In this document: positions 11,191 to 19,177 of the stretch, piece after piece
Position numbering within the stretch: the first letter of the stretch is position 1
Layout: each line of letters opens with the position of its first letter
Source: Ascidiaceihabitans sp.
GTDB taxonomy: Bacteria; Pseudomonadota; Alphaproteobacteria; Rhodobacterales; Rhodobacteraceae
NCBI GenBank assembly: GCA_028388995.1
Contig: JAOEQC010000017.1
Location: 1 to 37,476 of the forward strand
Direction: 5' to 3'
Length of the DNA: 37,476 nucleotides
The notes under the pieces: model-generated
Told to the model about the DNA's origin: nothing
What the model saw: only the letters and a program-made list of their open reading frames with translations
Database searches by the model: none
Program-made: the position numbers and the translations under genes

Positions 11191-11233
11191 TAAACAAGGG
11201 GGATGAATGGTGGGTCGTGAGAAGCTCGAACTC
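11191..11233. repeat. Left attachment-site-like direct repeat (partial tRNA-Val 3' end)
   Basis: taaacaagggggatgaatggtgggtcgtgagaagctcgaactc matches 19085..19127 at 40/43 positions. Confidence 0.85.
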
Positions 11234-11344
11234 TTGAATGCCAAATCTAAAAACTGTGATAAACTAAAATATAAAAAATAATACATTATATAACAGTTAC
11301 TTAAACTACTCAAAAACTAAATAAGCAAAATCATAGATAACAAG

Positions 11345-11380
11345 TGTTGTGTGACATGTTGTGTCAAGTGTTGTGTCAAG
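11345..11380 (+). repeat. Three tandem 12-bp repeats (putative integrase arm-type sites, left end)
   Basis: tgttgtgtgaca / tgttgtgtcaag / tgttgtgtcaag. Confidence 0.7.
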
Positions 11381-11522
11381 CAGCACAAATAAAAACCTAA
11401 CCCACGCCGATTTTTAAACACTCTTAGTAATAGTAGTAAGAAAATCTAAACAGGTTAAACACAGAGGTTTAAGGAAGGGTGAGAAGGAAAAGATTAGAAT
11501 GATAGTACCACCATTCTCTTTG

Positions 11523-11945
11523 TTATCCTTCCTGTCTTAATCCTAACTTTTGAAATCTGTTCCACTGTTGTTTGTGGTAATCTGAACTTTGATAAGCTTC
11601 ATGTCCTTTTGCATAGTCAAACAGCCTAGATGTGAAATCAATATCCCTAAAACTATTGTATTCTAGGGCTTTTGGTACAGTTTGTCTGTTCACATCAAAC
11701 CCTAACTCTACTCCTCGAATATGTTTGGTAGCTTCTTTCATCAAGTCTCTGACAAACAATTCGTCTGTGTCTGTGCATATTACAGAGTCGTGTACAGTTA
11801 ATATTGGTTTGTTTTGGCTGGTTGCTTTCTTGATGATTATTTTCATGATATTGCTGTCTACGAACTACTCAGTAGGGAACGCAGACAGCAACTTCATCAG
11901 CTTCTGCAAGAAGCGTGGGCCATACAAGAACGAGGAATTATTCTG
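11523..11945 (-). pseudogene. Truncated C-terminal part of a second palm-like polymerase (motif C VHDS)
   Basis: ORF 11523..11846 contains ILTVHDSVICTDTDELF; same frame continues upstream across a TAG (SFLYGPRFLQKLMKLLSAFPTE*FVDSNIMKIII) until the 5' end of the + strand pentapeptide gene. Confidence 0.5.
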
Positions 11946-12287
11946 ATGAAAAGAGCACTGACCGTAGCAGCAACTATGTTTGCAAGTAGTGCGTATGCTT
12001 TTGATCCTGCTGATCTACAGAAGCTGATGGATACGAATGAGTGTGTGAAGTGTGATCTGAGTGGTGCTAATCTGGAGGCTGCTAATCTGATGGCTGCTAT
12101 TTTGAGTGACGCTAATCTGAGTGGTACTCGTCTGGCGGGTGCTAATCTGGCGTATGCTGATCTGAACGGTACTAATCTGGCGGGTGCTGATCTGGAGAGT
12201 GCTAGGCTTGGGCGTTTTGATCTGAACGGTGCAATTCTCTGTAACACCACCATGCCAGACGGTTCAGTGATCTACAGTGGTTGCTGA
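11946..12287 (+). CDS. Secreted pentapeptide-repeat protein (short paralog)
   Basis: Signal peptide MKRALTVAATMFASSAYA; CVKC; A(N/D)LxGx repeats; C-term CNTTMPDGSVIYSGC. Confidence 0.85.
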   Translation: MKRALTVAATMFASSAYAFDPADLQKLMDTNECVKCDLSGANLEAANLMAAILSDANLSGTRLAGANLAYADLNGTNLAGADLESARLGRFDLNGAILCNTTMPDGSVIYSGC

Positions 12288-12315
12288 CGGAAACTGTCGT
12301 AGATTGGCAATTCCT

Positions 12316-13640
12316 TTAAGTCCCTGAAGTCTTAATCAAAGGCCAAACACCTAACTGTTGGTAAAAGGTCTGCGAGAAGGTTTCCTTTGCTACTATCATG
12401 CTTTCAACAGGCACAATCAGCGCATCATGTAGTGGCAAGAACCCTACGCCCAGCGCCTGTAGTTTTTCCCTTGTCAGCCGCAAAACTTCTGATTCAAGGT
12501 AATTGAGATAAGCCCAATCAATGTGACGAGGTTTGAGGAGTTCCACCTGCGGCATCGCTTCCAGCATTGCTGACCTGACCTCTTTCCAAGGTGCCTTTGA
12601 CACTATTTCAGGGAAGTCTGTTTTAAACTTATCTGAATACCGAACCTTATTCAGACCACCAGTTCCGATACTGGCATTAGAGATCGCCTTCACAGCTTCA
12701 CGAGTCAAAGCAGGAACCAAACTTGCTACATCAGCATAGTATTCCGAACAGTCCCTATCTGGTAGGTTGTTCTTATTAACGTAGATGCCAAACAACACAG
12801 ATGGAATGGACGCTACAATGTCCACTTCACCACAAACCTGACCATCAATTCTGATTTTGTCTAAGCGGGTTTTATTGGACATTCCTTGGTAAGATGAAAT
12901 GTAACGTCCGTAGTTCTTAATGCAGCCTTTAAACTGACGTTGTAACGGCTCTAAGCGAGTGCTCCTACCGTTGACTTGGAGACCATCGTATTCGTGCTTA
13001 GCCATCCCCTGTCGTAGCTTAATGACGTCTTCTTTAACGGCTAACCACTCAGCTTCTGAGGACTTGGCATACCTGAAGTATAATCTGTTAGCCTGTTCTG
13101 ACTTCGATCTTCTGCGCTTAGTGAACTTGATGGGTTTGTACGTGATGTCTTTCAGTGGACGGCCTTCAAGCTCAGCGGTTAACACTTCGAACTCTAGTTC
13201 TTCCTCTGGGATCAAAGCGAGTAGCTCGTCTGACGGTCTGTATCTGGGTGCAGGGTTGTCAACAGGTGCAGCCATAGGATCAGACACCAGGATCAGGTGC
13301 CCGTTCTGGATGAGATCATCTCTAATGTTGAGGTAAGCCGTATGGCCTAATGGTAAGTTCTTGTTCCATTTACCACGATCAGAGGTGAAGAAGACAAGTT
13401 CGTTCTTACCTGCAAGAATTGCATCTACCAAAGATGAAACAACAATGTGAGCTTTGTATCTTTTAGCTTTCGCTCTTCTGTCACCAATCACAGCAAAGCT
13501 TAGAAGTTCCATGATAGGCTTCAACCTGTCGTCCTCAGACACCTCTAACAATGATGGCAGACCATCGTACCAGTTCTTCTTTCCTCATTGATAACCTTCA
13601 TTCTACGGGAGTTAACTAAGGAGGATGGTATCTGTTTCAT
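12316..13640 (-). CDS. Divergent polymerase-palm-like protein, frameshifted near the N-terminus relative to its strong RBS/start
   Basis: Main frame 12316..13551 with GEVDIVASIPSVLFGIY (motif A-like), TREAVKAISNASIGTGG (motif B-like), LPLHDALIVP (motif C-like). AAGGAG plus ATG at 13640 opens MKQIPSSLVNSRRMKVINE in the +1-related frame. Confidence 0.5.
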
Positions 13641-13666
13641 GCTAATCTCCTTAGTTCCATTAAGGA

Positions 13667-13692
13667 GTACTGGTCAGGTAGTTTACCAGTAC
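13667..13692. promoter_or_regulatory. Inverted repeat in the divergent intergenic region (putative operator)
   Basis: GTACTGGT-N10-ACCAGTAC. Confidence 0.45.
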
Positions 13693-13744
13693 CTCTTGAG
13701 CCATATAATAGCAGATTTTACCTCGAAGTATATGGACTGGTAGC

Positions 13745-13773
13745 TTGCTTTTTATGTCCATTTATGATATAAT
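13745..13773 (+). promoter_or_regulatory. Sigma70-type promoter
   Basis: TTGCTT-N17-TATAAT. Confidence 0.6.
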
Positions 13774-17767: not shown

Positions 17768-17787
17768 AATGGGAGGCTTTTTTTAAG

Positions 17788-18393
17788 ATGAAAATAACAC
17801 TGACCGCACTGACCGTAGCAGTAACCATGTTTGCCAGTAGTGCATATGCATTTGATCCTGCTGATCTACAGAAGCTGAAGGATACTAGTAATTGCGTAAA
17901 GTGTGATCTGAGCGGTGCTAATCTGTACGATGCTAATCTGATGAGTGCTGGTCTGCATGATGCTGATCTGAGTGGTGCTAATCTGAGTGATGCTAATCTG
18001 ACCGCTGCTGATCTGACTTTTTCTAATCTGAGTGATGCGTTTCTGAGTGATGCTTCTCTGCAGGGTGCTTATCTGACTGGTGCTGGTCTGCATGATGCTG
18101 ATCTGAGTGGTGCTAATCTGAGTGATGCTAATCTGATCGGTGCTGATCTAACTTTTGCTAATCTGACTGGTGCTGGTCTGACTGGTGCTTATCTGACTGG
18201 TGCTTATCTGACTGGTGCTAATCTGACTGGTGCTAATCTGGAAGGTGCTAATCTGGAAGGTGCTGGTCTGAATGATGCTGATCTGGATGGTGCTAATCTA
18301 GAAGGTGCTAATCTGATATTTACCCAGATGAAGGGCGCAATCCTCTGCAACACGACCATGCCAGACGGTTCAGTGATCTACAGTGGTTGCTGA
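17788..18393 (+). CDS. Secreted pentapeptide-repeat protein (long paralog)
   Basis: Signal peptide MKITLTALTVAVTMFASSAYA; CVKC; long run of A(N/D)L-type pentapeptides; same C-term CNTTMPDGSVIYSGC as 11946..12287. Confidence 0.9.
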   Translation: MKITLTALTVAVTMFASSAYAFDPADLQKLKDTSNCVKCDLSGANLYDANLMSAGLHDADLSGANLSDANLTAADLTFSNLSDAFLSDASLQGAYLTGAGLHDADLSGANLSDANLIGADLTFANLTGAGLTGAYLTGAYLTGANLTGANLEGANLEGAGLNDADLDGANLEGANLIFTQMKGAILCNTTMPDGSVIYSGC

Positions 18394-18477
18394 CATCATC
18401 ATGACTGGTGAAATAACAGAAGCATAAACTGACGATGGACAACACCCCAAGAAGCTCACCAAGAACGAGGTGATAGT

Positions 18478-18615
18478 ATGAGCCCATTTAAACTGCACAG
18501 TGAACTCGCAGAACGACTACGGATCAAACTTGGCCGGTCACATTACGCGCTCTACTGGTTGTCGTTTATCAAGGGTGTTGCGGTAACGTGTCTTGTGCTG
18601 TGGTTGATGTGTTGA
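18478..18615 (+). CDS. Small protein with C-terminal TM segment, 45 aa (not in the ORF track)
   Basis: MSPFKLHSELAERLRIKLGRSHYALYWLSFIKGVAVTCLVLWLMC; upstream gagg RBS-like sequence. Confidence 0.45.
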   Translation: MSPFKLHSELAERLRIKLGRSHYALYWLSFIKGVAVTCLVLWLMC

Positions 18616-18674
18616 ATAGATCAGGTATGCTTAATTTTATAAAGTTAGCCCTGAATATATTATCAACAGCAGTG

Positions 18675-19001
18675 TTACTCGTGCTTGCCGTTTGCTTGGG
18701 CTACATCGGTGATGGCTTTACGAGCAAAATCGTCTACCCCAGAAATCGCATCCTGCTCAGCTTCTAACTGCTTCTGGTCAAGTTTGGCGTACAGTTCTTC
18801 ACCAAGTGTCATCAGCATCTTGTCTGCTAAAGCACGATCATTGGTCCCTGTAGCTTTACGGATGTTGGTTGTACCACCTTTCCCACTTCCGAACAGATGA
18901 CGAATCTGACGTGGAATGCTGACTTCAACAGAGTATTAACCCTTCACCAGCACAACACGAGGGATTGGGTAATCATTCCGTGTCAGCTTTTTAAGACTCA
19001 C
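18675..19001 (-). pseudogene. Phage-type (tyrosine) integrase N-terminal remnant with internal TAA
   Basis: (V)SLKKLTRNDYPIPRVVLVKG*YSVEVSIPRQIRHLFGSGKGGTTNIRKATGTNDRALADKMLMTLGEELYAKLDQKQLEAEQDAISGVDDFARKAITDVAQANGKHE*; located beside the tRNA attachment repeat. Confidence 0.6.
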
Positions 19002-19021
19002 TTGTGTACAAACCAAGCAGG

Positions 19022-19057
19022 TGTCGTGTCACGTGTTGTGTCAAGTGTTGTGTCATA
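19022..19057 (+). repeat. Three tandem 12-bp repeats (putative integrase arm-type sites, right end)
   Basis: tgtcgtgtcacg / tgttgtgtcaag / tgttgtgtcata. Confidence 0.7.
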
Positions 19058-19084
19058 CACCCTTATTAATATGACATTTCTATA

Positions 19085-19127
19085 TAAACAAGGGGGATTG
19101 ATGGTGGGTCGTGAGAGGCTCGAACTC
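19085..19127. repeat. Right attachment-site-like direct repeat overlapping tRNA-Val
   Basis: taaacaagggggattgatggtgggtcgtgagaggctcgaactc; 40/43 identical to 11191..11233. Confidence 0.85.
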
Positions 19128-19177
19128 CCGACATCTTCGGTGTAAACGAAGCGCTCTACCAACTGAGCTAACGACCC
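19102..19177 (-). tRNA. tRNA-Val (TAC), CCA encoded
   Basis: GGGTCGTTAGCTCAGTTGGTAGAGCGCTTCGTTTACACCGAAGATGTCGGGAGTTCGAGCCTCTCACGACCCACCA; anticodon loop TTTACAC. Confidence 0.96.

Follow-up and report, generated by a model that had tools for sequence, protein, structure and literature searches.

Pipolins are integrative elements that encode the polymerase piPolB and usually also carry a tyrosine recombinase and variable cargo (PMC7385651, PMC9710591). Phage satellites form a second group of mobile elements, of which PICMI is one kind (PMC10803314), and the Charybdis elements, described in a preprint, are archaeal and have no replication gene (PMC12324425). Here we examine an element inserted at a tRNA-Val gene in a 37,476-nucleotide stretch of DNA from Ascidiaceihabitans sp. 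(contig JAOEQC010000017.1), which we call the window. We put the probability at roughly three in four that this locus belongs, in decayed form, to a family of small integrative elements (about 6 to 13 kb) that carry a tyrosine integrase and a one-protein polymerase whose fold is shared by family A DNA polymerases and RNA polymerases of the T7 type. We refer to this polymerase-like protein of the elements as the palm protein.

The likeness to pipolins lies in an integrative element with a polymerase of its own. However, the defining feature of pipolins is a family B polymerase that needs no primer, whereas the palm protein is small (410-530 aa) and predicted to adopt the family A/T7 RNA polymerase fold; the open reading frames (ORFs) of the window element have no match to a Pfam polymerase B family. 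Like the PICI, PICMI and tycheposon satellites, the palm elements are small, use a tyrosine integrase, live in marine and other bacteria and often carry defence cargo, and phages have homologues of the palm gene; no packaging or capsid-related gene, however, was found in the elements we scanned. To our knowledge, no palm-type hallmark polymerase has been described for PICI, PICMI or tycheposons. Charybdis elements were rejected as the identity of the locus on account of their archaeal hosts and missing replication gene. Overall, the window element is pipolin-like in its working without the polymerase that defines pipolins, and satellite-like in size and cargo with no packaging gene found. We found no published description of such a family in the open-licence literature, to which our search extended (subscription papers lay outside it), and the family is widespread and apparently unnamed.

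Insertion at tRNA-Val

The element is enclosed by a direct repeat of 46 bp (11188-11233 and 19082-19127, 42/46 identical) that bounds 7.9 kb. An earlier note on this DNA had reported the repeat as 43 bp (40/43); it is real and bounds the same interval, and only its extent has been refined. Elsewhere on its + strand, the window has nothing closer to the 46-mer than 24/46, which rules out a chance repeat. As that note had also described, the right copy (attR) overlaps the 3' end of an intact tRNA-Val(TAC) gene on the - strand (19102-19177, called by ARAGORN), while the left copy (attL) holds only a 3' fragment of the tRNA. Direct repeats at both ends, one of them completing an intact tRNA 3' end, are what a tRNA-integrated element of the tyrosine-recombinase type presents. 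The interval is also lower in GC content than its flanks (44.8% versus 50.5-51.5%). Just inside both ends lies an iterated 12-bp motif (CAAGTGTTGTGT and variants), at 11341-11378 on the left and, in three copies, at 19018-19055 on the right. Judged by sequence and position, these are candidate arm-type integrase sites.

The earlier note had suggested looking for an empty tRNA-Val(TAC) site in relatives, and we found one. Genome G001 of the same genus (locus L025) aligns to window positions 20762-19101, up to the last base of tRNA-Val, and its match picks up again 75 bp further on, at window 9986-8563 (90% identity). The junction at the last base of the tRNA is clean, and the window therefore holds about 9.1 kb that are extra at this site. 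In G001 the tRNA is followed by a carboxymuconolactone-decarboxylase-like gene. Different integrase-like reading frames begin shortly after the same tRNA-Val in two other genus members (G003 and G008), which makes this tRNA a site of repeated insertion. Contig C39 (L023) of G002, the nearest relative within the genus (96% identity), breaks off precisely where tRNA-Val ends, pointing to a repeat or a strain-variable insertion there.

The insert in the window is a tandem array rather than the single element that had been proposed; integration at the tRNA stands. Reading away from tRNA-Val, the 7.9 kb element (A) is followed by the left attachment (att) site, the stub of a second element (B), an insertion sequence (IS) remnant and the carboxymuconolactone-decarboxylase-like gene. 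The left repeat is thus the junction between two tandem elements. To its left, on the - strand, is the start of another integrase (10990-11187), 85% identical in DNA over 52 bp to the one that follows tRNA-Val in G003 (L024). The IS remnant (10053-10986, - strand) appears to derive from an IS3-type transposase, a name taken from its ORF.

A recurrent integrase-palm pair at tRNA genes

The palm protein of the window (411 aa; 12316-13551, - strand) is recognized by its PHROGs profile, by alignment and by predicted structure. It matches phrog_4756 (E 1e-7), a family of unknown function in PHROGs that is matched by 34 of 34 aligned members. Among these 34, NCBIfam gave no match, Pfam none except a single stray helix-turn-helix, and Pfam DNA_pol_A none at all. 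The gene is nonetheless common: it was found in 43 of 299 genomes sampled from the family, 25 of 385 from the class and 24 of 398 from the phylum, with all but one of these last 24 carriers belonging to the same class. About one in seven of the sampled family genomes thus carries a gene for which neither Pfam nor NCBIfam has an entry. Many genomes hold palm fragments, and carriers in the family often have several copies or fragments.

We compared long palm loci from two collections with 20 control regions of 20 kb, placed arbitrarily in the genomes that supplied the loci. An integrase was present in 23/27 and 32/35 of the palm loci and a tRNA in 22/27 and 31/35, against 2/20 and 7/20 of the control regions. 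The integrase lay within 500 bp of the tRNA in 15/27 and 17/35 loci (controls, 1/20), and a resolvase was present in 10/27 and 9/35 (controls, 1/20). The search for the same gene set at other tRNAs, another suggestion of the earlier note, therefore found integrase plus palm, in part with resolvase, at many tRNA genes. That note had listed the palm protein as odd cargo; on this evidence it is instead the hallmark of the family.

Searching for repeats shared by the 3' end of a tRNA gene and the region beyond the palm gene, we picked out 20 loci. In 15 of them, the integrase and the palm gene lie together between tRNA-end repeats (50-76 bp, no more than two mismatches) that span 6.3-12.5 kb. Some repeats in the 50-76 bp range are exact, at tRNA-Gly, -Leu, -Val and -Gln genes; examples are Paradonghicola geojensis (L163; 57 bp, 8.5 kb), HTCC2255 (L168; 56 bp, 6.3 kb), Mesorhizobium microcysteis (L184; 56 bp, 7.9 kb) and locus L103 (76 bp, 7.9 kb). 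An intact member has a tyrosine integrase, usually beside its target tRNA, and a palm polymerase, and many add a serine resolvase and exchangeable cargo. In genome G056 (L050:6980-15584), a tRNA-Leu gene sits between two divergent integrase genes with a palm gene further out on each side, forming back-to-back elements.

These relatives bear directly on whether the window holds an ordinary dead island, in which unrelated genes piled up at a tRNA by chance and form no functional unit. The window does contain a truncated integrase, a palm fragment, a split gene and an IS remnant, as such an island might. Yet bounded elements at other tRNAs, spread over many genera, have this combination of integrase, palm gene and resolvase, and the source genome itself holds a homologous copy; the intact relatives already speak against chance accumulation. 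We regard a dead island as very improbable.

Cargo varies among the relatives: we found restriction genes of type I and type IIG, DUF4062 proteins and secreted proteins. In one cargo protein of the P. geojensis element (L163:13740-15056), a ubiquitin domain (Pfam E 9e-31) is fused to an autotransporter beta-domain, which places a eukaryote-like ubiquitin on a bacterial mobile element.

Fold and likely role of the palm protein

Across 52 aligned relatives, the only invariant columns are GR, ExD, RxxxK, HD and one leucine. The corresponding window residues are G215, R216, E242, D244, R284, K288, H375 and D376, positions that, in our reading, match the expected places of motifs A, B and C in DNA polymerases of family A and in T7-like RNA polymerases. 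AlphaFold2 models of the window protein (pLDDT 75.6, pTM 0.69) and of a relative from locus L112 (pLDDT 89.3, pTM 0.87) have a right-hand fold with motif A, B and C residues in place (D244, R284, K288, H375 and D376 in window numbering). In Foldseek searches with the predicted models, family A DNA polymerases came out on top with probability 1.00 (E 1e-5 to 3e-5); mitochondrial RNA polymerases were found as well. Hidden Markov model (HMM) profiles of the palm family gave only weak matches to sequences in the Protein Data Bank (PDB), and neither Pfam DNA_pol_A nor T7/SP6 RNA polymerases were matched significantly. Because sequence profiles fall short of significance, the assignment rests on predicted structures and motifs: the palm protein is predicted to be a polymerase of the family A DNA polymerase/T7-like RNA polymerase fold. 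It shares the predicted core and motif residues with these enzymes but differs in its N-terminal half, and no exonuclease domain was recognized in it.

The same motifs raise the possibility that the palm protein is an element-specific T7-type RNA polymerase that transcribes or primes element DNA. Its GGRFYG stretch resembles the GRxY motif of T7-like RNA polymerases and LPVHDSF is similar to their HDSF motif, and mitochondrial RNA polymerases appear among both the sequence and the structure matches. However, family A DNA polymerases score above them in structure searches, the profile match is not significant, and at 410-530 aa the palm proteins are about half the size of known single-subunit RNA polymerases. 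We consider a dedicated RNA polymerase unlikely.

The reading we prefer is that the palm protein would replicate the element. The integrase would recombine the tRNA 3' end with attP by way of the 12-bp arm repeats, and the element would be excised as a circle. The palm protein may then bind a site near its own gene and copy the circle; two inverted repeats upstream of the palm gene (13614-13697), which might serve as an operator or an origin, are candidates for that site. The N-terminal half of the protein, weakly similar to winged helices and winged-helix regulators in HMM comparisons with PDB sequences, could be the DNA-binding part. The resolvase would separate multimers, and transfer would call for a helper in the form of a phage, or for DNA uptake.

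The winged-helix likeness also fits a different role, in which the palm protein is polymerase-like defence or regulatory cargo, comparable to abortive-infection reverse transcriptases, and the elements replicate with the chromosome only. Other cargo of the elements is defence-related, and palm fragments in many genomes mean that the gene is often lost. Against this, the palm protein is constantly paired with the integrase while the rest of the cargo is unrelated from element to element. It is also not among the PADLOC defence models, and in Vibrio phage HNL01 its gene adjoins a DNA helicase gene. A defence or regulatory role strikes us as rather unlikely.

Viral relatives of the palm gene occur in Vibrio phages VnaP and HNL01 and in 42 IMG/VR contigs, several of about 85-90 kb, which are possible sources or helpers of the elements. 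The viral contigs were found by a pattern scan built from an alignment of close relatives (A3); the window palm protein used alone as query found no relative among viral contigs and matched one phage and one plasmid record. One viral contig of 89 kb (IMGVR_UViG_3300023171_000010; L205, L209) has two palm genes and a tRNA cluster. Another (IMGVR_UViG_3300037296_000253; L227:1-11746) contains three tandem copies of a unit of about 3.3 kb, 99.5-99.97% identical, each encoding a 422-aa palm protein and a 215-aa recombinase; the array may be genuine, may reflect a replication concatemer or may be an artefact of assembly.

Such phage homologues make it conceivable that the elements are phage satellites, with the palm protein replicating the circle during helper-phage infection and helper capsids delivering it. 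Small size, tRNA sites and the lack of conjugation genes agree with this, as do the endolysin-like gene in the window element and the restriction cargo of its relatives, of a type common on satellites. Defence cargo is known on other islands too, though, and no encapsidated copy was identified. Neither the window element nor the scanned cargo of its relatives holds a packaging, terminase or capsid-modifying gene (pac and cos sites were not part of that search). We hold a satellite lifestyle to be a real possibility, at a little under even odds.

Going beyond the family itself, we tentatively propose, with the doubts somewhat stronger than the support, that these are widespread, undescribed, self-replicating tRNA-integrating elements of the Alphaproteobacteria. 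A single small protein, with the PolA/T7 RNA polymerase fold and a winged-helix-like N-terminal half, might both bind the origin of the excised circle and replicate it without a primer (or serve as its primase). The family would then be a family-A-fold counterpart of pipolins that is shared with phages. If the polymerase does copy the element, it would join piPolB as a second, independent solution by which small integrative elements bring their own replicase, and the palm protein might be a compact new enzyme. The palm gene in any case serves as a marker for finding these elements and their defence cargo.

Several points weigh against a family of elements replicated by the palm protein. The replicase role is drawn from fold and gene context, and we saw no free circles of the element. 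Since the palm protein has just the core in common with known polymerases, TM-scores to them reach only about 0.3-0.4, and the profile alignment with T7/SP6 RNA polymerases (E about 0.09) is confined to the motif C region. In the window, the palm gene may be damaged at its 5' end, which by its reading frame is probably shifted near 13575. The control set is small (20 regions), a few loci are common to both collections (for example L097/L112 and L098/L169), and palm loci supplied the seed of the integrase model; the contrast is strong without being a formal statistic. Finally, several of the bounded loci have a distant repeat copy that is annotated as a tRNA gene in its own right, and case by case a natural tRNA duplicate is possible.

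Decay and cargo of the window element

The integrase of element A survives as an N-terminal remnant beside the tRNA (about 18675-18992, - strand) with one in-frame stop, and the remainder of the gene is missing; relatives have an intact integrase gene. Over 91 aa, the remnant shares 35% identity with a 555-aa integrase of locus L151 (residues 12-98 of the latter), and over 54 aa it shares 56% identity with a stub in contig C52 of the same genome. Two further genes are broken. The C-terminal fragment of a second palm gene (11523-11846, - strand) retains the VHDS motif and matches phrog_4756 positions 385-433 (E 5e-8), and a gene at 13864-14411 (+ strand) is seemingly split by a frameshift into pieces of 51 and 131 aa, the first of which matches an intact 194-aa protein of L050. 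The truncated integrase, truncated second palm gene and apparently frameshifted gene mark the element as decayed, in agreement with the earlier description of a decaying element with an integrase remnant beside the tRNA.

With its integrase cut down to the N-terminus, the window element is best read as fixed in place, or as movable only if an integrase were supplied in trans. It thereby resembles cis-mobilisable remnants, which have att sites and no working integrase: att repeats and arm-like sites are kept, the integrase is truncated and elements have accreted in tandem at one tRNA. Contig C52 carries a second, partial element homologous to this one, with a palm fragment, a pentapeptide gene and a palm C-terminus in the same order as in the window. 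It too adjoins an att-like sequence and an integrase stub, so the arrangement would be older than the split of the two copies. Palm C-terminal fragments recur near tRNA genes or att sites (L134:19815-20075, L136:16378-16809 and window 11523-11846), as if left by successive insertions at one tRNA.

The reading frames of the resolvase, the GH73 gene and both pentapeptide genes are open. The serine resolvase (187 aa; 17204-17767, + strand; Pfam Resolvase E 2e-38) is 58-62% identical to resolvases in six palm loci. The GH73 glucosaminidase (319 aa; 14619-15578, + strand; Pfam E 5e-32) has an endolysin-like domain at its C-terminus (phrog_3513 endolysin, E 9e-46); phage records held no near relative, and there was one weak viral match. 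The two pentapeptide-repeat proteins are paralogues (77% DNA identity over 278 bp): protein 1 (11946-12287, + strand; Pfam E 9e-15) and protein 2 (201 aa; 17788-18393, + strand; Pfam Pentapeptide E 6e-43), which has a signal-peptide-like start. The pentapeptide proteins, GH73 protein and small secreted proteins are best read as cargo. Among the short ORFs, one of 52 aa (16497-16655, + strand) is of secreted type, with a weak CBM_14 match under the curated cut-off; one of 84 aa (15575-15829, + strand) has no family match in Pfam and PHROGs scans; and one of 68 aa (16818-17024, - strand) has a counterpart beside the resolvase in L050 too (52% over 60 aa; L050:1068-1265).

Pfam and PHROGs matches thus bear out the gene content listed in the earlier note: a palm protein, GH73 lysin, serine resolvase, two pentapeptide proteins and short ORFs. 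Its statement that no capsid, terminase or conjugation gene was recognized holds for the main ORFs scanned, a set that did not include every very short ORF. No relaxase or conjugation gene of the kind that marks integrative and conjugative or integrative and mobilizable elements was found among the window ORFs scanned.

The source genome is an incomplete metagenome-assembled genome (1.9 Mb, 53.6% complete). Host genes elsewhere in the window, including those for 5-aminolevulinate synthase, IspG and Lon, fit Rhodobacterales as far as their ORFs can be read. Two tRNA-Asp(GTC) genes (6609-6685 and 9343-9419), about 2.7 kb apart, flank edd/eda-like genes.

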